A stretch of 64,000 nucleotides of DNA, taken from contig NZ_JAIOUB010000003.1 of assembly GCF_019931215.1 (NCBI RefSeq), positions 62,001-126,000 of the forward strand, written 5' to 3'. Shown here piece after piece: positions 3,134-15,821 of the stretch; position 1 is the first letter of the stretch, and each line of letters starts with the position of its first letter. The notes beneath the pieces were generated by a model. It was not told the origin of the DNA. It did not search any database and worked only from the letters and a program-made list of their open reading frames with translations. A program made the translations under genes and the position numbers. The stretch is from Alcanivorax limicola (GTDB taxonomy: Bacteria > Pseudomonadota > Gammaproteobacteria > Pseudomonadales > Alcanivoracaceae).

Positions 3134-3172
3134 TGCCCGCTTAATTTTCGTTCATCACCTACGGTGCCTTTT

Positions 3173-4642
3173 ATGCTCAGAATTGTGCAAGAAGCACTGA
3201 CATTCGACGACGTTCTTCTGGTACCCGCCTACTCCGAAGTCCTGCCCAAGGATGTCTGCATCAAGACGCGTCTGACCCGTGACATCAGCCTGAACACCCC
3301 GCTGGTGTCGGCGGCCATGGACACGGTGACCGAGCATCGCCTGGCCATCGGCATGGCTCAGGAAGGCGGGATCGGTATTCTTCACAAGAGCATGGACGCC
3401 GAAGATCAGGCTCGCCATGTGCGCATGGTCAAGAAGTACGAGAGCGGCGTGGTGAAGGACCCGATTACCGTCGGCCCGGATACCACCGTGGCGGAGCTGC
3501 TGCGCATTACTGAAGCGCATAATATTTCCGGTGTACCCGTGGTGGATGGCGACAACGTAGTCGGCATTGTTACCAGCCGGGATACGCGCTTTGTCACGGA
3601 GTACAACCAGCCGGTATCGGCGGTGATGACGTCGAAGGACCGCCTGGTGACCGTGCAGGAAGGCGCCAGCGCCGAAGATGTGCAGGCACTGCTGCACCGT
3701 CATCGCATCGAAAAAGTTATCGTGGTGAACGAGACCGGCGCGCTGCGTGGTCTGATTACCGTAAAAGATATCGAGAAAGCCACCAACTACCCGAATGCCT
3801 GCAAGGACTCCCAGGGTCGCCTGCGCGTTGGCGCCGCTGTTGGCACCGGTGCAGATACCGAGCATCGTGTGCGGGCACTGGTTGAAGCCGGTGTGGATGT
3901 GATCGTGGTGGACACCGCCCACGGCCATTCCCAGGGCGTGCTGGATCGCGTGGCCTGGATCAAGAAAACCTTCCCGGACATTCAGGTTATCGGCGGCAAT
4001 ATCGCCACCGCTGACGCTGCTCGTGCACTGGCTGAGGCTGGCGCTGATGCGGTGAAAGTCGGCATCGGTCCGGGTTCCATCTGTACCACGCGTATCGTCG
4101 CTGGTATCGGTGTACCGCAGATTACCGCAATTTCCGAAGTGGCTGACGCACTGTTGAAGTATGACATCCCGTTGATCGCTGACGGCGGTGTCCGGTTTTC
4201 CGGTGATGTGTCCAAAGCCATCGCCGCGGGTGCCAGCTGCATCATGATCGGCTCCCTGCTGGCCGGTACTGAAGAGGCCCCCGGCGAAGTCGAGCTTTTC
4301 CAGGGCGGGTACTACAAGGCGTATCGCGGCATGGGCTCACTGGGTGCCATGGCCGGCAAGACCGGTTCCAGCGACCGTTATTTCCAGGACGCTGCGGCCG
4401 GCGTGGAAAAGCTGGTGCCGGAAGGCATTGAAGGTCGCGTCCCGTACAAGGGCCCGATGACCAATATCGTACATCAACTGATCGGCGGTTTGCGTGCGTC
4501 CATGGGCTATACCGGTTGCCGCGACATTAACGAAATGCGCACCAAGCCGTATTTCGTCAAGGTCACTAGTGCCGGCATGAAAGAGTCCCACGTGCACGAC
4601 GTTACCATCACCAAGGAAGCGCCCAACTACCCGGTGGGGTGA
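3173..4642 (+). CDS. guaB: IMP dehydrogenase
   Basis: Inosine-5'-monophosphate dehydrogenase oxidises IMP to XMP with NAD, the first committed step of GMP synthesis. From the ATG at 3173 ([20 protein letters not shown]) the protein is 489 residues, the usual length; a GTG at 3164 is in frame but would add three residues not expected in the family. The TIM barrel is interrupted by two CBS domains at about residues 93-145 and 152-205. The catalytic cysteine is C304 in GPGSICTTR, and the mobile flap and active-site segments ([27 protein letters not shown]) are present. It is followed by guaA, the next enzyme of the pathway, after a gap holding a hairpin. Confidence 0.98.
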
Positions 4643-4690
4643 GCCGCGATCGACGCATAGCGTCACAGCGCGGCGAAGCAGCGAGGCAAC

Positions 4691-4719
4691 GGCCGGCAAA
4701 CTTGCCGGCCTTTGTGTTT
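4691..4719 (+). terminator. Terminator-like hairpin between guaB and guaA
   Basis: GGCCGGCAA (4691-4699) pairs with TTGCCGGCC (4702-4710) and is followed by TTTGTGTTT. The shape fits an intrinsic terminator, or partial attenuator, inside the guaBA cluster. guaA would then depend on read-through or on its own promoter in the 4711-4769 gap. Confidence 0.6.
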
Positions 4720-4769
4720 GATACTGAATTATTCATACCGGGCGACACCAGCCCCGAGCGGACAACGCC

Positions 4770-6341
4770 ATGAAAGATATTCATTCCCAGCGCATCCTGA
4801 TTCTGGATTTCGGTTCCCAGTACACCCAGCTGATTGCTCGCCGTGTGCGCGAAATCGGGGTTTACTGCGAAATTCGTGCCTTTGATATGGATGATGCGGA
4901 AATTCGCGCGTTTGATCCCACCGGGGTGATTCTTTCCGGCGGCCCGGAAACCGTGACCATGACCGAAACCCCCCGGGCACCGCAGCGCGTATTCGAGCAC
5001 GGCGTACCGGTGCTGGGTATCTGCTACGGCATGCAGACCATGGCCTCCCAGCTGGGCGGCGCGGTGATCCACGGCGAGAAGCATGAATTCGGCTACGCCC
5101 GCGTGCAGAAAACCGGCGGCAGCCGTCTGCTGGATGGCATCACCGATCACGAAGAAGCAGGACACGATTTCCTGGACGTCTGGATGAGCCACGGCGACCG
5201 CGTTGAAAGCGTACCGGAAGGCTTTCTGGTCACGGCCAGCACCGGCTCCTGCCCCGTCGCCGGCATGGCCGACGACGAGCGCCGATTCTACGGCGTGCAG
5301 TTTCATCCGGAAGTGACGCACACCTTGCAGGGCGGTCGCCTGCTGGAACGTTTCGTTCGCGACATCTGCGGCTGCGAGAAACTGTGGACACCCGACAACA
5401 TCATTGAAGACGCCATCGAACAGATTCGGGAACAGGTGCGCGACGAAGAAGTGATCCTGGGCCTGTCCGGCGGCGTCGATTCCTCCGTGGTCGCCGCACT
5501 GCTGCACAAGGCCATTGGCGACCAGCTCACCTGCGTGTTTGTCGACAACGGCCTGCTGCGTCACCGCGAAGGTGACCAGGTGATGGAAATGTTTGCCGAG
5601 AACATGGGCGTCAAAGTGATCCGCGTTGACGCCGAAGACCTGTTCCTGGGCAAACTCGCCGGCGTTGAAGACCCGGAGAAGAAACGCAAGATCATCGGCA
5701 ATACCTTCATCGATATTTTTGACGACCAGGCATCAAAGCTGACCAACGCAAACTGGCTGGCCCAGGGCACCATCTATCCTGACGTCATCGAATCCGCCGC
5801 CAGCAAGACCGGCAAGGCCCACGTGATCAAATCACACCACAATGTGGGCGGCCTGCCGGAACACATGAAGCTGAAACTGGTGGAACCCCTGCGCGAACTG
5901 TTCAAGGATGAAGTGCGCAAGATCGGCCTGGAACTGGGCCTGCCCTACGACATGGTTTACCGCCACCCCTTCCCGGGCCCCGGCCTCGGCGTGCGTATCC
6001 TCGGCGAAGTGAAAAAGGAATACGCCGACACCCTGCGGCTGGCCGATGACATCTTCATCACCGAACTCCGCGCCGCTGGCCTGTACCACAAGACCAGCCA
6101 GGCCTTCACCGTGTTCCTGCCGGTGAAATCCGTCGGCGTGGTCGGCGACGCCCGCCGCTACGAATACGTGGTGGCCCTGCGTGCGGTGGAAACCATCGAC
6201 TTCATGACCGCCCGCTGGGCACATCTGCCCTATGATTTCCTGGAAACGGTATCCAGCCGCATCATCAACGAAATCCCGGGCATCAGCCGGGTGACCTACG
6301 ACATTTCCTCGAAGCCGCCTGCGACGATTGAGTGGGAGTGA
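4770..6341 (+). CDS. guaA: GMP synthase (glutamine-hydrolysing)
   Basis: GMP synthetase aminates XMP to GMP using glutamine and ATP. The 523-residue protein has an N-terminal class I glutamine amidotransferase domain with nucleophile C85 (GICYGMQ) and H179/E181 (QFHPEVTHT), an ATP pyrophosphatase domain with the P-loop SGGVDSS at 233-239, and the C-terminal dimerisation domain ending in PPATIEWE. Length and motifs are canonical. It lies 127 bp after guaB on the same strand. The region downstream of its stop begins the low-G+C insertion. Confidence 0.98.
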
Positions 6342-6395
6342 TCTCTCCGAGTCCTGTTTTGCTCACACGTCGCTGACGGGGCGGGATAATGGTGG

Positions 6396-6549
6396 TTAGA
6401 TAGCGTTTGAGGGAAACAGACTACGCGGTTCGAACTGTTTCTCCAGGCGCTTTCCCGGTTATGTCTCGTTCGGCAGTCTGATGTGCATGGTGTGCTGTAG
6501 ATGTCTGGTGCGTGGTCAGATCAAATCAGTACAGCTTGCGCCAGTGGCT
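6396..6549 (-). pseudogene. Decayed 3' fragment of a second arylamine N-acetyltransferase gene
   Basis: Two blocks match the intact nat gene on the same strand. Block 1 (6408-6500) aligns with 10718-10812 without indels; its minus-strand translation keeps TMHIRLPNE, GKRLEKQFEPRSLFPSNAI against TMRIRLPNK, RKRLEEQFASRDLFPSRAI, but has an internal TAA stop. Block 2 (6514-6549) aligns with 11015-11050 (SHWRKLY-stop-FDLT against GHWRTLYRFDLT), with a second in-frame stop. About 190 bp that separate the blocks in nat are deleted here, and no 5' part is visible. Identity in block 1 is roughly three quarters or more by eye, so this is a diverged copy, not a recent duplicate. Confidence 0.85.
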
Positions 6550-6647
6550 GCCGCCGACCGCCCGTTGGGCCCTGCCATTCGGTGCTGTCAGTGGGGCAGT
6601 AGTGCGGAATTGGCTGGAGAGATAGGACAAAGCTAGAGGGCCAAGGT

Positions 6648-9600
6648 ATGAGGTTTTTCGCTAATGGGCCAGCTATACCCGATCTCCTTCTTGAAAGATG
6701 CGATGCAGGCCGTGTCGTATTTCTTTGCGGTGCAGGCGTTTCACTTCCATCGGGAATGCCGAGCTTCATTGGTTTGACTAGGCATGTCATTGATTTCTTC
6801 GATCCTGAATCATCTTCGGAGATCATGACTGCATTTCAGCCATGGCTCGATGAGCCTTCCGCAGCAAACGTGCCGTTAGACCAAATCTTCAATCTTCTGC
6901 ACCAAGAGTATGGGAAAAATGAGGTCAATGCGCTTGTCACGGAGCGATTGCGCTCTGAGCATATGGCGGGCGGCGTTGGTCGCGAGCACGGACTGATCAA
7001 ACGTATCTCCTCGAATCCGCATGGAGTGCCGCAGGTTGTCACCACGAACTTCGATCTGCTCTTCGAGGCTGACGAAGTTGCCGATTTCAAGGTTCACGTT
7101 CCTCCCGCTTTCCCTGATCTTGCATTAGGAGCTCCGGTAGATGGTGTCACATACCTGCATGGAAGACTTGCGTCCGTAGAGGCAGATCAGCATGCCTATG
7201 TACTGAGCAGTGCTGACTTCGGAAGAGCCTACCTCTCCGAAGCTTGGGCTACGAACTTTGTTAGGAATCTGCTCGAGTATTACACAGTTGTTCTGGTGGG
7301 ATATCAGGCTGAAGATCCACCTGTGAAGTATTTGCTTCAAGGTTTGAATCACGATGATCAGTTTGACCGTTCGCGGCTTTATGCTTTTGACAAAGGCCGG
7401 CCAGAAGACATTGAAGCGAAATGGCGTGATAGAGGCGTGACTGCCATCGCTTATGAAGATCATTTTCAGCTTTGGGAAACCCTAGAGGCCTGGGCGGTGC
7501 GCGCCGATGACCCGCGGGCATGGAGGGCTGGTGTTCTCGATTCGACTTATTCTGATCCCAAGGTTTTGGCTCCTCATGAACGTGGAAAAGTTGCTCACGT
7601 ATTGCGCTCGGTACAGGGGGCGAAGATTTTTTCTGAAATAGATCCTCTGCCTCATCCAGAATGGATTTGTGTGCTGGACGGGGTTGTCAGGTCAGCAAAG
7701 GCGGCTGGCGGGTATAGTCAAGATGTTGAAACTTTTTCGCCTTACTTGGCTTATGGTCTAGACGATGATCTAGAGAGGGGTGAAGAGGCGGGCTATCTGA
7801 GAGAAATCAGGAACGATGATTTGCTGGAGTGGAGAGAGGGAGACGATAACCCTGCAGATTTCCACTGCCTCGGCGATCGGCAGATTGAGGGACAAGAAGC
7901 GATTCCGCCTAGGCTTTGGCACATGATGAAATGGATTGATAGATCGATAAGAAGCCCGGTCATTGCTTGGTGGGCGGCTCAAAAAAAAGGCTTGCATCCA
8001 CGGCTCATTGCACAGCTCAGACTGTCTTTGTGGCGAGAAGAAGATCTGGATGAGAAGGCTCGGCACGTATGGAGTTTGATTCTGGAGTGTCATCGTGATG
8101 CTCGTAATCGTGACTGGGGCGAGAGCTGGTTCCATCTCAATAGAAGAATAGCTAAAGAGGGTTGGACGGGTAGCGTCTTAAGGGATCTTGATCGCGCACT
8201 TCAGCCTCGATTGGCGATGGCGCAACCTTTAGGTGTTCGTCGATCAAAACCTCCTCCGGAGAGGTGGGCAGAGACGAACATTGAAGATGTGGTCATGTTC
8301 GAGGTGAAGTTGCTGGATATGCATGGGCAGGGTCTTGATGTGCCTGATGAAATGATAAGTGATGTTCTGAGAATCCTGGAGTATCAAATATCTGCAGCCT
8401 CCGGCACATTGACTGATCTCGATGTCGCCAGCTTCGCCACGCCTACAGTTTATCCAGGTCGAGAAATGGATGATGGGGAAGGAGATTTATCTTCTGTCGA
8501 AGTTTTAATTCTCTTTGTGAAGATCTATGACCGTCTTGTTGCTCTAGATCCGGATCTAGCAAAAGTACACGCCATGACTTGGGATCAAGGCGATAAGTAC
8601 TTCTTCCGTAAGTTGAAGCTATATGCCTTATCAAAGCCAAATGTATTTTCGGCCGTTCGCGCGGTCGAGGTGCTTATGTCTTTTGATCAAGAGTCATTCT
8701 GGGATTTCGGGGTGGCCAGAGAGTTGCTCTTTCTGGTTGAGGATCGATGGCCGGAATTTTCTGTGGCTGATAAGGATCGTCTTGCAGAGCGTCTACTCGC
8801 CGGCCCAGATCAAAGATTCTACTGGGCTGATGGTGCCTATCCCGAAATACGTGATGGGATCATAGCAAGATATGGTAGATATCTTCAGTTGAAAGGTTGC
8901 GGGCTATCTGAGCCACATTCGGCAGCGCTCGAGAAGATTATTTCTGATATTCCTGATTGGGATGATAGCTTGGCGGTTTCAACCGTGGCGCAATACGGAT
9001 TACATATCGGCTGGGTTGGAACAGATGAATCCCCGGCTGCCATTCTTGATCTTCCGGTCGGCGAAATAGTGGCTATGGCCAAGGTTAAGACCGGTTTGGA
9101 GCGGGGCTTTGGTAATTTCAATGAGGAGCGACCGTTCACTGGGCTTGTAAAGATCAACCCGAGGAAGGCCCTTGCAGCTTTAACTGCGGCTGCTAGGTCC
9201 GGCGAATACCCAGCAGCGTTCTGGTCGGCTCTGATTGCTGAGATGCCTAAGGAGACTTCTCCACGGTTTAAGTTGCTTTATTTGCACAGACTCAGAAATC
9301 TTCCGTGCCCAGTAGTGGTTGAGCTTCGCTATGTTCTTGGAAGGTGGTTGGGGCGGAATTTTACGGCTGCTATTGAGTTGGACGAGCAGCTTGCTTTGCA
9401 GCTCTATGATCACATAGTGGATTGTGTCTTGGCTGCTGGAGATGAAGTATCAAGGAGTGCTACAGGCGGGGTACTTCAAGTAGGAGAATCTCTCGAGCGG
9501 TCCACACGAACCTATGACCAAGCGATCAATGCTCCCCTGGGGATGTGTGCAGAAGCTCTGATCCAGGCTGTTCTAGGCGAGACTCAAGAAAAAGGTTCAT

Positions 9601-10460
9601 CGGTTCCGGATCATATTAAGTTACGGTTGGAGCGCCTTTTTTCGGCCGGTGGAGAAGGAGCTAATCACGCCGTGGCAATCTGCATGCGCCGATTGAACCG
9701 GCTCATGCACGTTGATCCTGCCTGGACGGAAGTTCGCCTGCTTCCCATGTTGGCTTTTGATCACCCGGCAACTGAGCCAGCTTGGAGCGGATTTTTGCAT
9801 ACATCTGGCGTTCCCTCTCCGCAGCTTGTAGTGCTCCTGAAGCCCTTGCTCCTCAAGCTTTATCCATGGATAGAGGCATTCTATTGGAAGGCGGATGTCT
9901 CGGATGCGCCAGCTTTATGGCTGGCCCATATGTGCGTTTTCGCTGAGGGGGAGGCGTGCGGCCTTACTCAGAAAGAAATGAAAAGCGCCTTGCGGCGAAT
10001 GAGTGACGGAGTGCGCAGCCACGTCATATTCTGGCTTTGCGAAGTAGGTGGATCGAAAGACGATGGCTGGAATAGGGTTGTTATCCCGTTCATCGAGAAT
10101 GTGTGGCCTAGAGAGCGTAAATTCCGAACGGGGTCGTCTTCATTGTCTTGGATTAGGCTCCTTGCTCGTGCTGAAGGTGATTTTCCTGCGGTCTATTCCG
10201 CAGTAAAGCGGTTCTTGGTGCCTTTTGAGGGGGGTAGTCATGCTCTTCATCGGTTCATGCGGGGGGGGATGGAGAGTGACCCAATTACCGTTCGTTATCC
10301 TGACGCCACCTTGGACTTCATGAATACCGTAACCCCACAGACTCTGACTCGCGCCCCCTATGATTTGCCCAAGATTCTTGCGCTAATTGCAGAGGCGAAG
10401 CCTGATTTGACCGCTGATCCAAGATATCTTCGCTTGATTGATCTTGTAGAGCGGTACTAA
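6648..10460 (+). CDS. SIR2-domain protein with long C-terminal extension, candidate antiphage NADase
   Basis: The 1270-residue protein starts with a SIR2-like Rossmann domain: NAD-binding GAGVSLPSGMPSF (GAGVS at 28-32), VTTNFD with N134, YLHG with H171, and GYQAEDPP at 218-225. N134 and H171 sit where the catalytic Asn and His fall in defence-associated sirtuins. The remaining roughly 950 residues look mainly alpha-helical and Trp-rich with no motif I can name; this may be the DUF4020-type extension found on some SIR2 proteins, unverified. Known relatives deplete NAD on phage infection and cause abortive infection; that role here is inferred. No partner gene is adjacent. Base composition is clearly lower in G+C than both flanks, and the gene lies between two nat sequences, both signs of transfer. 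Start: ATG 6648 after AGAGGGCCAAGG. Confidence 0.85.
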   Translation: MRFFANGPAIPDLLLERCDAGRVVFLCGAGVSLPSGMPSFIGLTRHVIDFFDPESSSEIMTAFQPWLDEPSAANVPLDQIFNLLHQEYGKNEVNALVTERLRSEHMAGGVGREHGLIKRISSNPHGVPQVVTTNFDLLFEADEVADFKVHVPPAFPDLALGAPVDGVTYLHGRLASVEADQHAYVLSSADFGRAYLSEAWATNFVRNLLEYYTVVLVGYQAEDPPVKYLLQGLNHDDQFDRSRLYAFDKGRPEDIEAKWRDRGVTAIAYEDHFQLWETLEAWAVRADDPRAWRAGVLDSTYSDPKVLAPHERGKVAHVLRSVQGAKIFSEIDPLPHPEWICVLDGVVRSAKAAGGYSQDVETFSPYLAYGLDDDLERGEEAGYLREIRNDDLLEWREGDDNPADFHCLGDRQIEGQEAIPPRLWHMMKWIDRSIRSPVIAWWAAQKKGLHPRLIAQLRLSLWREEDLDEKARHVWSLILECHRDARNRDWGESWFHLNRRIAKEGWTGSVLRDLDRALQPRLAMAQPLGVRRSKPPPERWAETNIEDVVMFEVKLLDMHGQGLDVPDEMISDVLRILEYQISAASGTLTDLDVASFATPTVYPGREMDDGEGDLSSVEVLILFVKIYDRLVALDPDLAKVHAMTWDQGDKYFFRKLKLYALSKPNVFSAVRAVEVLMSFDQESFWDFGVARELLFLVEDRWPEFSVADKDRLAERLLAGPDQRFYWADGAYPEIRDGIIARYGRYLQLKGCGLSEPHSAALEKIISDIPDWDDSLAVSTVAQYGLHIGWVGTDESPAAILDLPVGEIVAMAKVKTGLERGFGNFNEERPFTGLVKINPRKALAALTAAARSGEYPAAFWSALIAEMPKETSPRFKLLYLHRLRNLPCPVVVELRYVLGRWLGRNFTAAIELDEQLALQLYDHIVDCVLAAGDEVSRSATGGVLQVGESLERSTRTYDQAINAPLGMCAEALIQAVLGETQEKGSSVPDHIKLRLERLFSAGGEGANHAVAICMRRLNRLMHVDPAWTEVRLLPMLAFDHPATEPAWSGFLHTSGVPSPQLVVLLKPLLLKLYPWIEAFYWKADVSDAPALWLAHMCVFAEGEACGLTQKEMKSALRRMSDGVRSHVIFWLCEVGGSKDDGWNRVVIPFIENVWPRERKFRTGSSSLSWIRLLARAEGDFPAVYSAVKRFLVPFEGGSHALHRFMRGGMESDPITVRYPDATLDFMNTVTPQTLTRAPYDLPKILALIAEAKPDLTADPRYLRLIDLVERY

Positions 10461-10699
10461 ATCGTGGTCTTGATTGTTACTCTAATAGCTGCGGTTGTCC
10501 TCCCGGCAGGGAGGCGGCATGGTTGCTGATTTGGAAGAGGGGAACGTCGGTGTTACGTTGTATTCTTAGTCGTACTGGTGGGAGCTTCTAGGGTTTTAAC
10601 ACACTGACCTAAAAAGAGCTATTTGTCCATTTTGTAATTGGGTAGGAGCGACTTTCCCAAGTTCTATTCCTTCTCGGATGACGTGCTCACGTGGCTGGG

Positions 10700-11551
10700 T
10701 TATGGCTCCTGAATGGCCCTCGAGGGAAACAGATCTCGCGACGCGAACTGTTCCTCAAGGCGCTTTCTCAGTTGCGCCTTGTTCGGCAACCTGATGCGCA
10801 TGGTGTCCTCCAGCACCGCCAGCACGGCGGCGGGGCTGTCCAGTTCCTGCCGCAATGTGCGGCCATCCGGGTAACGCACGCTGTAGTGATTGTTGCGCAG
10901 AATATGCCGGCAGTTTGCATCCACGCGGGTCGCGATAAGATCGCTGACAAAGCGTGACGAGGCATGCCGGGAGGTGAACCAGTTGGCCACCTCGTAATCT
11001 GCCGGCCAGCAGGCGGTCAGATCAAACCGGTACAGCGTGCGCCAGTGACCCTCATCCAGCGCCTGCTGGGTATAGATGCCATCCTCGTGCCGGATGCGGA
11101 ATGTCTCATGGCTGGTGGGTTGGGGTGTCTCCTGATCAAGGCGCAGCGGCGCAACGCCGGTCATGACGCCGAAGCCGGTATCCACCACATAGGCAATGCC
11201 ATCAATGGTGACCTGCAGCAGCATGTGCGAGCGTGCCGGGCGGGCATCCTCTGCGGCGCCCCAGTACACCCGCGCCAGCAGCCCGCGCACCTGGAACCCC
11301 AGCTGCTCCAGGATGTTCCTGAACAGCAGGCCGTGTTCGTAGCAATAGCCACCGCGCCCGCGCGTGATCAGCTTCGCTTCGATATCGGCCAGCCCCAGCG
11401 ACACCTCCCGCCCCTGAAAGGAATCCAGATCCTCGAACGGAATATGCATGACATGCTGACGCTGCAATGCGCGCAGCACGGGCAGCGTTGGCGCCAGCGC
11501 GTCCTGATGGTTGATACGTGCCAGGTAGGCGGCAAGGTTGATGTCGGTCAT
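10700..11551 (-). CDS. nat: Arylamine N-acetyltransferase
   Basis: NAT enzymes transfer acetyl from acetyl-CoA to arylamines and hydrazines in the cytosol through a cysteine intermediate. The 283-residue length is normal and the catalytic triad is visible: C70 in RGGYCYEHG, H109 in RSHMLL, D124 in VDTGFG. The start ATG at 11551 has GAGG eight bases upstream. Its 3' end is the sequence that reappears as a relic at 6396-6549, on the other side of the SIR2 gene. It is divergent from the VOC-ArsR-SRPBCC cluster. Confidence 0.95.
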   Translation of the reverse strand: MTDINLAAYLARINHQDALAPTLPVLRALQRQHVMHIPFEDLDSFQGREVSLGLADIEAKLITRGRGGYCYEHGLLFRNILEQLGFQVRGLLARVYWGAAEDARPARSHMLLQVTIDGIAYVVDTGFGVMTGVAPLRLDQETPQPTSHETFRIRHEDGIYTQQALDEGHWRTLYRFDLTACWPADYEVANWFTSRHASSRFVSDLIATRVDANCRHILRNNHYSVRYPDGRTLRQELDSPAAVLAVLEDTMRIRLPNKAQLRKRLEEQFASRDLFPSRAIQEP

Positions 11552-13646: not shown

Positions 13647-15821
13647 ATGGATGGATTGGTACTGATCAAGCTCATTGTGATCGTGATCATTCTGGGCACA
13701 TCGTTATTCAGTTATATCGGTTACCGGAGTCGCCGGGGCAGCGCCAAACGTGTGTTGTCCTCGGTGCGTCAGTCCGCCGCGCCCCTGCGGCGGCTGTCAC
13801 CGGCGGAACGTCAGGCCCTCGAACCCTTTCTGCATGATCCCCTGAAGCCCGATATCGCCGTCCCGCTGGACAGCGACGAGGTATTTGCTCTGGAGGGCGA
13901 ATACCAGCGCCATGGCCTGGAGGGCAGTGGCCATTCGACCTGGCACGATACCCTGGGTGGTGTGGAAGTTATCCTGCCCTTCGATGCAGGGGCCTTTCTG
14001 GACCCTGTCAGCAACCGTGCGGAAGTGGTTTTTACCGACCGCTTCGCTGTGGTGTTACGGCTCAATGACAGCTTCGAATTGCTCGAGGGGCGGGACCGGG
14101 ACGCGCGGCGAGAGACACAGCATTCCCAGTGGACCAGCGGCGGCCGCGGCGCCTTGAAAGAGGTCTTTGTGGATGATCCCACTTCCGGGGATGAAACGGA
14201 CACTGGCGCAGAGACCCGTGCCCGCGTCGATATTCTCGGGCAGCGTGACGAAACGCCAGCGGAGATCGAGCAGCGCACGGGACGTGGCCTGGGGCTGTTG
14301 CCCGGCCTTTTCTGGTTGCTGGCGTTCCTCGCGTTGGCCATCGCCAGCATGGAGGGGTTGCAGGCGGGGCGTTATGTCTGGCTGGCGGTTGCCGGCGTGC
14401 TGGGCGTGGCGGGCCTCTGGTTTTTCTGGCGCCACTGGCAGCCGGGGCCGGCACAGAAAGTGAACCGGGTGTCGGGTGAGCTGAATATCCTGGCCCTGCA
14501 GAACGAAGGCAGTGAACAGCCTGCGGTAACGCAGCTGATGTTGGGGGACAAGCTCGCCTTCACGCTGCCGCCGCACTGGCTGCCTCATCTGGATCTGCGT
14601 GCCGGGCAGCGGCTGGAAACCGAGCTGCGGGTGGAGGACTGCTCTGCTGTGCGGCTGGGGCATCGCATGGCGCTGGATGACGAGATTCGCCGGTTTCCGC
14701 TCGCCTATTGGGGCAAGCATCTGGCCATGGTGATTGTTGCCGGGGCGGCGCTACTGTGGGCGCTGGCGGTGTCTCCCGGGGTGCGCGGTGATATCGCAGT
14801 GGCGGCCAACTGGCTTGGCGGCAAGTCGGCGCAAACCTTCAGTGACGTGGCGGCGCTGCAGTCTGCCGCGCCCCGCGCGGGCGCCATGGTGACACTGACC
14901 GGCGACGCGCGCTGTGAGGTGCGGCAGGCACCAACCCAGTGGGCTGATCCCGGTATTCGCTGTGATCTGCTGCGCTGGGGCGGTGAGCCCATGGCCCTGG
15001 ATAATGCCGAGATGGATGACGTGACCGCACGTCTTGCCGCAGGGGATTTCATTCACACCCGCCGTGATCCGTATCTGGAACTGATGATGCAGCTGCGTGC
15101 CGCCGGGCGAGATCCGCGCCAGCGCAGCGTGACGCCGGTGGTTATCACGCGCCCCGACGAGATTGTGTCACTGGTAGACGCGGCCTGCGACGGTGACACG
15201 GCGCCGCGCGAGCGTTCAGCATGCAGCCGCTTGCGGGATATCGTGTTCGGCGGCTTGCATCTGAATGTCGACACCCCGCCGGAGAGCTGGCAGGCGTTGC
15301 AGACGCTGCTCAGTGAGCACGCAGCGCAGGACGAGGCGGTGCCGGAAGCGGTGAGCGCAGAGCATCATATCAATGACATCAAGCGCCAGGCGCAGACACT
15401 GGCCAACGAACGCGCCAGTGCACAGCTGGACGATCTGGCGAAACAGATCAGCGCGGCACAGCGTGGCGGCGTCGTGATTGCGGTGCACTCGCCCGGTGAT
15501 GCTACCTTGCCCTGGGATAACCGGCAGCCCGGCGCCGCCAGGTTGCGGCTGCAGCGGCTGCTGACGTTAGCAAGGGATGACGGCGCACAAGCGTTCCGGG
15601 TCAGTGGCCTGGTGCTGTCCCGCAGCCAGGATGACACGGGCGCCGAGGTATTGTGGGTGGATGCATCGCGCTCGCTGGCACAGCCCTGGCCCGCCACCGT
15701 GCGCGCCCTGTGGATACTGCTGGCGGCGCTGCTGGTGCTGGTGCATGGTGTAGTGTTTGCGGCGCGTTACCGGGCTGCGCGGCAGCGTGATGCGGCACTG
15801 GCGGCGCATTATCGACGCTGA
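13647..15821 (+). CDS. IgaA/YrfF-family inner-membrane protein
   Basis: A 724-residue protein matching the enteric IgaA (YrfF) family in length and order. It has an N-terminal membrane helix, the cytosolic motif RRLSPAERQALEPFL (enteric RKLTPEERSAVENYL), a central helix pair (about residues 217-265), a segment WLPHLDLRAGQ ... MALDDEIRRFPLAYW followed by a third helix (about 360-378), a large periplasmic domain with ARCEV and IRCDLLRW resembling enteric GMCNI and FDCSQIIW, and a C-terminal helix. In enterics IgaA restrains the Rcs phosphorelay by contacting RcsD. No rcs genes are visible here, so the partner is unknown. ATG 13647 has GGGAG upstream. Confidence 0.8.
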   Translation: MDGLVLIKLIVIVIILGTSLFSYIGYRSRRGSAKRVLSSVRQSAAPLRRLSPAERQALEPFLHDPLKPDIAVPLDSDEVFALEGEYQRHGLEGSGHSTWHDTLGGVEVILPFDAGAFLDPVSNRAEVVFTDRFAVVLRLNDSFELLEGRDRDARRETQHSQWTSGGRGALKEVFVDDPTSGDETDTGAETRARVDILGQRDETPAEIEQRTGRGLGLLPGLFWLLAFLALAIASMEGLQAGRYVWLAVAGVLGVAGLWFFWRHWQPGPAQKVNRVSGELNILALQNEGSEQPAVTQLMLGDKLAFTLPPHWLPHLDLRAGQRLETELRVEDCSAVRLGHRMALDDEIRRFPLAYWGKHLAMVIVAGAALLWALAVSPGVRGDIAVAANWLGGKSAQTFSDVAALQSAAPRAGAMVTLTGDARCEVRQAPTQWADPGIRCDLLRWGGEPMALDNAEMDDVTARLAAGDFIHTRRDPYLELMMQLRAAGRDPRQRSVTPVVITRPDEIVSLVDAACDGDTAPRERSACSRLRDIVFGGLHLNVDTPPESWQALQTLLSEHAAQDEAVPEAVSAEHHINDIKRQAQTLANERASAQLDDLAKQISAAQRGGVVIAVHSPGDATLPWDNRQPGAARLRLQRLLTLARDDGAQAFRVSGLVLSRSQDDTGAEVLWVDASRSLAQPWPATVRALWILLAALLVLVHGVVFAARYRAARQRDAALAAHYRR

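Follow-up and report, generated by a model that had tools for sequence, protein, structure and literature searches.

Relation to Dsr1 and DSR2

Dsr1 (defence-associated sirtuin 1; NCBIfam NF041818, PADLOC PDLC02183 and PDLC04167) is the nearest known system to the gene considered here, which lies downstream of guaA in a stretch of 64,000 nucleotides from Alcanivorax limicola (the window) and encodes a SIR2 protein of 1270 amino acids (aa). Dsr1 is a tested defence system that, according to the accessible part of a review, blocks phage replication without killing the cell, and no phage trigger is given for it in the literature searched, which leaves most subscription papers outside its coverage. 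For DSR2, the accessible portions of the published work describe a C-terminal part that senses the phage tail-tube protein, after which the catalytic pocket opens and NAD+ is cleaved, and the mutations N133A and H171A are reported there to abolish the cleavage. The gene in the window is considered, with good confidence, to encode a Dsr1-like antiphage sirtuin, that is, an arm-gated NADase that would be activated by a trigger and would stop the phage by depleting NAD+.

The open reading frame (ORF) starts with ATG and has no internal stops, and the start codon is backed in the alignment by an N-terminus, M(R/Q)xx..GPxxP, common to relatives. The NCBIfam Dsr1 model matched the protein in two stretches with an E value of 3.2e-112 and 376.3 bits (best stretch 469-1266 on model positions 480-1261 of 1263), followed by the PADLOC Dsr1 model, also in two stretches, with an E value of 6.6e-84 (best stretch 1-340 on 1-353 of 1275), and the two models match both the SIR2 part and the C-terminal arm. 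As 376.3 bits lies below the NCBIfam equivalog cut-off of 1400 bits, the protein was classed in a Dsr1-like sister group and not as a Dsr1 equivalog. All 16 proteins of alignment A1, which leads from the window protein to the Dsr1 of an E. coli plasmid, are matched by the Dsr1 models of both NCBIfam and PADLOC. The protein resembles Dsr1 in its length (models of 1248-1275 positions), in the order of its parts, in its identical catalytic motifs and in conserved Trp and Pro residues that line up colinearly along the arm, but it differs from annotated Dsr1 in showing 22-25% identity and in falling into a separate group in the whole, SIR2-only and arm-only trees.

Relatives were detected by tblastn in 61 of 72,556 plasmid records, 29 of them covering at least 80% at one place, and at least 497 were confirmed among at least 593 candidate stretches in the scan of genome contigs, the best 80 of these (at least 497) being carried forward. 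The seven annotated plasmid entries examined from outside the Dsr1 group carry no product name other than "SIR2 family protein". Alignments A2 and A3 comprised 58 relatives out of 107 loci, and 30 rows of a 31-row alignment were informative (L129 being a single residue); three relatives that were full-length by tblastn and had no motif-bearing ORF (L080, L109 and L152) were left out. The FastTree tree, built from 107 rows with a minimum length of 1190 aa after removal of fragments, broken copies and identical rows, and drawn unrooted at its midpoint, placed the window protein in a group of 65 rows that excludes the annotated Dsr1 rows, the label "canonical Dsr1" having been assigned in this analysis. 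The same group was recovered by the SIR2-only tree (support 0.985) and the arm-only tree (0.955), with 2 of the 37 supported SIR2 splits in conflict with the arm tree. Both parts are thus inherited together, and no arm exchange between the main groups was shown by comparing them.

The SIR2 domain, the arm and the proposed mechanism

The earlier note on this DNA had read the gene as a candidate antiphage NADase from GAGVS (28-32), N134 and H171, and these residues were indeed found in a real and intact ORF, H171 lying inside LHG. The invariance of the N-terminal motifs among relatives arises partly by construction, as relatives were extracted or searched with patterns holding CGAG or GAG, then NFD or TTNFD; H171 is unaffected. 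The Pfam search, carried up to E 10, gave SIR2_2 alone (residues 129-267, E = 6.6e-14) and matched neither SLOG nor a DUF4020-type domain, which the note had suggested looking for. A model lacking an NAD pocket had been named there as evidence against the reading, and the predicted structure shows a SIR2 fold with an NAD pocket, as in DSR2. The suggested comparison of the prediction with DSR2 was also made, and DSR2 was the top Foldseek match of the predicted 1-1200 model. The reading thus stands in part, in that the Dsr1-like family, the catalytic residues and the predicted SIR2 fold agree with it; NADase activity and protection would be expected on this basis.

As far as DSR2 (PDB 8wya, 8zc9 and others) is described in the accessible text, the two proteins share the SIR2 fold, the N/H active-site pair at nearly equal numbers (N133 and H171 in DSR2) and a long, mostly helical C-terminal part, and they differ in length, DSR2 having about 1005 aa against 1270. 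The sequence profile reached DSR2 chains just at positions 18-51 (E = 0.09), and DSR2 was not among the listed matches of the structure search with the arm-only model.

The remark in the note that the C-terminal part holds no nameable motif is correct for Pfam, but the Dsr1 profiles match the arm and the predicted models show a helical solenoid. Comparison of the predicted model with known structures gave weak matches to HEAT/importin/PP2A-like structures, and no PDB chain matched the arm by sequence above chance level. Codon changes were counted in five close pairs that share no row: residues 1-290 had 83 replacement and 304 silent changes, and residues 291-1270 had 658 and 1009, respectively; the excess of replacement change in the arm over SIR2 was significant when summed (p 1e-11) and in four of the five pairs singly. 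Variability over seven overlapping pairs of close alleles peaked at residues 1231-1255, 1075-1099, 615-639 and 752-776. By its variability, the C-terminal portion formed by aa 1049-1099 and 1165-1255 is a candidate phage-facing surface, and the fast replacement change of the arm fits such a surface but would also fit weaker constraint.

By homology, the window protein is expected to be an arm-gated NADase. The N-terminal domain, judging from its residues and fold, would be the NAD+ hydrolase, and the solenoid of about 980 residues would keep it switched off while the cell is at rest. Infection would supply the trigger, a phage product and most likely a structural protein, to judge from the tail-tube protein that acts on DSR2. 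Its binding to the solenoid would open the NADase, deplete NAD+ and halt phage production. The tail-tube trigger of DSR2 itself cannot be assumed for the window protein.

The guaA site and the history of the insertion

The gene had been described as standing alone, low in G+C and situated in an insertion, and each of these points was borne out. It is the sole ORF of note between guaA and an N-acetyltransferase gene (here called nat), and its G+C content is 50.9%, compared with 61.6% in the window as a whole and 60.2% in guaA, while the G+C content at third codon positions is 0.48 in the gene and 0.77 in guaA. The insertion is supported by two of six same-genus genomes (L029 and L031), in which a single small ORF separates guaA from nat, and by the decayed nat 3' end that lies between guaA and the gene; the four other genomes (L028, L030, L032 and L034) carry other DNA at this place. 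The nat 3' end thus occurs twice, flanking the insert on both sides, with one copy decayed.

The guaA 3' end with GAGTGGGA is, in the accessible parts of PMC7775301 and PMC9376610, a published genomic-island site. The insert starts there, as in the guaA islands GIsul2 and ICERspD18B, but unlike in those islands its attR, if present at all, is no more than a decayed remnant, the candidate being collinear with the nat repeat. No second att site with at most 5 mismatches of 18 was found within 10 kb downstream of the gene (shuffles gave 0.3 to 0.5 matches per 10 kb at this threshold). Neither an integrase beside the gene nor another ORF longer than 121 aa between guaA and nat was found, the region beyond nat not having been searched for an island end. 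The coordinates of the features are collected in Table 1.

Table 1. Features of the Dsr1-like gene and its surroundings (positions in the window)
Feature	Position	Strand	Basis or remark
Dsr1-like SIR2 protein gene (P0001)	6648..10460	+	1270 aa; NCBIfam and PADLOC Dsr1 models; colinear alignment with annotated Dsr1
N-terminal SIR2 NADase-type domain	6648..7517	+	aa 1-290; CGAGVS 27-32, TTNFD 132-136 with N134, H171
C-terminal helical solenoid arm	7518..10457	+	aa 291-1270; predicted models; probable sensor/regulatory part
Stretch with the most variable C-terminal segments between close alleles	9792..10412	+	aa 1049-1099 and 1165-1255
guaB	3164-4642		Upstream of guaA; named from IMPDH domain
guaA, GMP synthase	4770..6341	+	Pfam GATase and GMP_synt_C; 3' side variable in genus
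guaA 3' end with GAGTGGGA (6330-6337)	6326..6341	+	att core of guaA-targeting genomic islands; PMC7775301, PMC9376610
Decayed copy of nat 3' end, guaA side of insert	6372..6569	.	Direct repeats D1, D2; score 130 against at most 58 in 100 shuffles
Weak possible remnant of second guaA 3' end (attR), tentative	10637..10668	+	6327-6358 aligns; 104 of 2000 shuffles as good
Matching part at 3' end of intact nat gene	10685..11070	.	Direct repeats, alignment
nat, N-acetyltransferase gene	10700-11551	-

Among 46 genomes of the bacterial family, full-length copies occur in 8 and a profile match in 13. By score (1734 to 1904 bits), three of the eight full-length copies (G000, G061 and G065) belong to the window type, and all three lie directly downstream of guaA; for the other five (776 to 1039 bits), no guaA was present within the stretches fetched. 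A 4277-base block carrying the gene is 95.9% identical between G061 and G065 (the latter being, by its coordinates, the Alcanivorax sp. ih1 chromosome, L058), and the matching flanks, guaA included, are 74-82% identical. Because the block is far more alike than its flanks, the block itself is inferred to have moved. Its right edge is an att-like copy with 3 mismatches of 18, clear in L158 and L058. Weak att sites with 4 or 5 mismatches were also present in L028 (two), L031 (one) and L032 (one), against an expectation of 0.3 to 0.55. The insertion traces in the window, with a decayed nat end and no clear downstream att, are older than those in G061 and G065, and the gene probably came to the guaA 3' island site on its own, as the only cargo.

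The state of this site bears on whether the gene is a silent or decaying passenger, brought by a mobile element and now non-functional in its host. The decayed surroundings (the nat remnant and the doubtful attR) would agree with this, as would the single promoter-like match in the gene region, below the shuffle mean of 3.6. The passenger explanation is nevertheless unlikely, as 1270 codons have stayed open and the catalytic residues intact although the flanking repeat decayed, and dN/dS is 0.42 between the two remaining window-type copies in the family.

Several further loci were recorded. The same-genus genome G001 carries other cargo downstream of guaA (L028:1573-7206); an ORF at 3246-3821 there resembles a resolvase by eye, and the sequence at 7189 is weakly similar to att (5 mismatches of 18). 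In Serratia inhibens, a relative of another Dsr1-like group (L118:9837-14442) has a guaA 3' end about 3.0 kb away. The family copy L159 (G060:C5:6499-10321) lies in two separate open frames. Separately from the sirtuin, positions 13647-15821 of the window encode an IgaA-like protein (Pfam IgaA, 1.4e-29).

Carriage of relatives and significance

Sequence comparison places relatives on mobile DNA. They occur on plasmids, among phage genes and beside a KAP NTPase gene, and their G+C content was lower than that of the flanks in 18 of the 22 close-group loci examined, with the opposite found in four. A 55%-identical relative lies between tail-fibre/baseplate genes and lysis/major head genes on the IMG/VR contig L130 (3322-16931), a phage or prophage contig that we take to be P2-like from its gene set. 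Another relative (L128) adjoins an integrase, and a serine recombinase family was found nearby in four loci. A search of 50,697 phage records gave no relative. On an Enterobacter hormaechei plasmid, L042:5022-8413 is an incomplete relative that aligns over 54% of the query at about 46% identity and has IS3-family elements both alongside and inside it. Flanking genes were compared over 68 loci (the window plus 67 relatives, short flanks being frequent), and even the most frequent neighbour families were present in just five loci each. In five Roseobacter loci (L050, L052, L053, L057 and L091; about 4019-6004), a homologous gene stands directly upstream of the Dsr1-like gene, its end overlapping the Dsr1-like start by 4 bases in four of the five; in L057 the upstream gene is split into two ORFs. 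The upstream gene in L050 is a KAP NTPase (Pfam, 1.8e-15) matching the PADLOC candidate PDC-S49 (1.2e-133), and the pair is possibly a two-gene variant.

ThsA depends on its C-terminal SLOG domain and on ThsB as a partner, and KomC, SIR2-HerA (Nezha), SPARSA and Avs5 likewise use partner proteins or other sensor domains. None of these is seen for the window gene, which has Pfam SIR2_2 alone and guaA and nat as neighbours. Identity with Thoeris ThsA was rejected, there being no SLOG in Pfam up to E 10 and no ThsB among the neighbours. The same observations count against the idea that the SIR2 domain, with its fold class unchanged, works by way of a signal nucleotide or some other route and not by depleting NAD+ in bulk; this idea is improbable, the N/H pair being the one required for NAD+ cleavage in DSR2 as far as that work is accessible. 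The alternative of an enzyme for housekeeping or stress that plays no part against phages, which would agree with the lack of any phage experiment on the protein's group in the literature search, is hardly credible in view of the patchy occurrence within the family, the plasmid, phage and PDC-S49-type surroundings of relatives and their low G+C content.

The Dsr1-like arm-gated NADase is therefore preferred, and a more specific picture of it is put forward tentatively, as a possibility that we regard as rather doubtful. The protein would belong to a distinct Dsr1-type lineage apart from annotated Dsr1, whose fast-changing solenoid, especially in the two C-terminal segments, recognises phage products unlike the DSR2 tail tube, and which travels, as a cassette of one defence gene, both in prophages and at the guaA site, and in some Roseobacters has joined with a KAP NTPase to form a two-gene system.

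The overall finding, a divergent, mobile Dsr1-like antiphage sirtuin, is sound and largely ordinary. The central question that it raises is what the Dsr1-type arm senses. The many natural alleles that this large Dsr1-like sister group has on mobile DNA lend themselves well to a search for the trigger through close alleles, and the 96%-identical copies in G061 and G065 offer the first pair for such a comparison.
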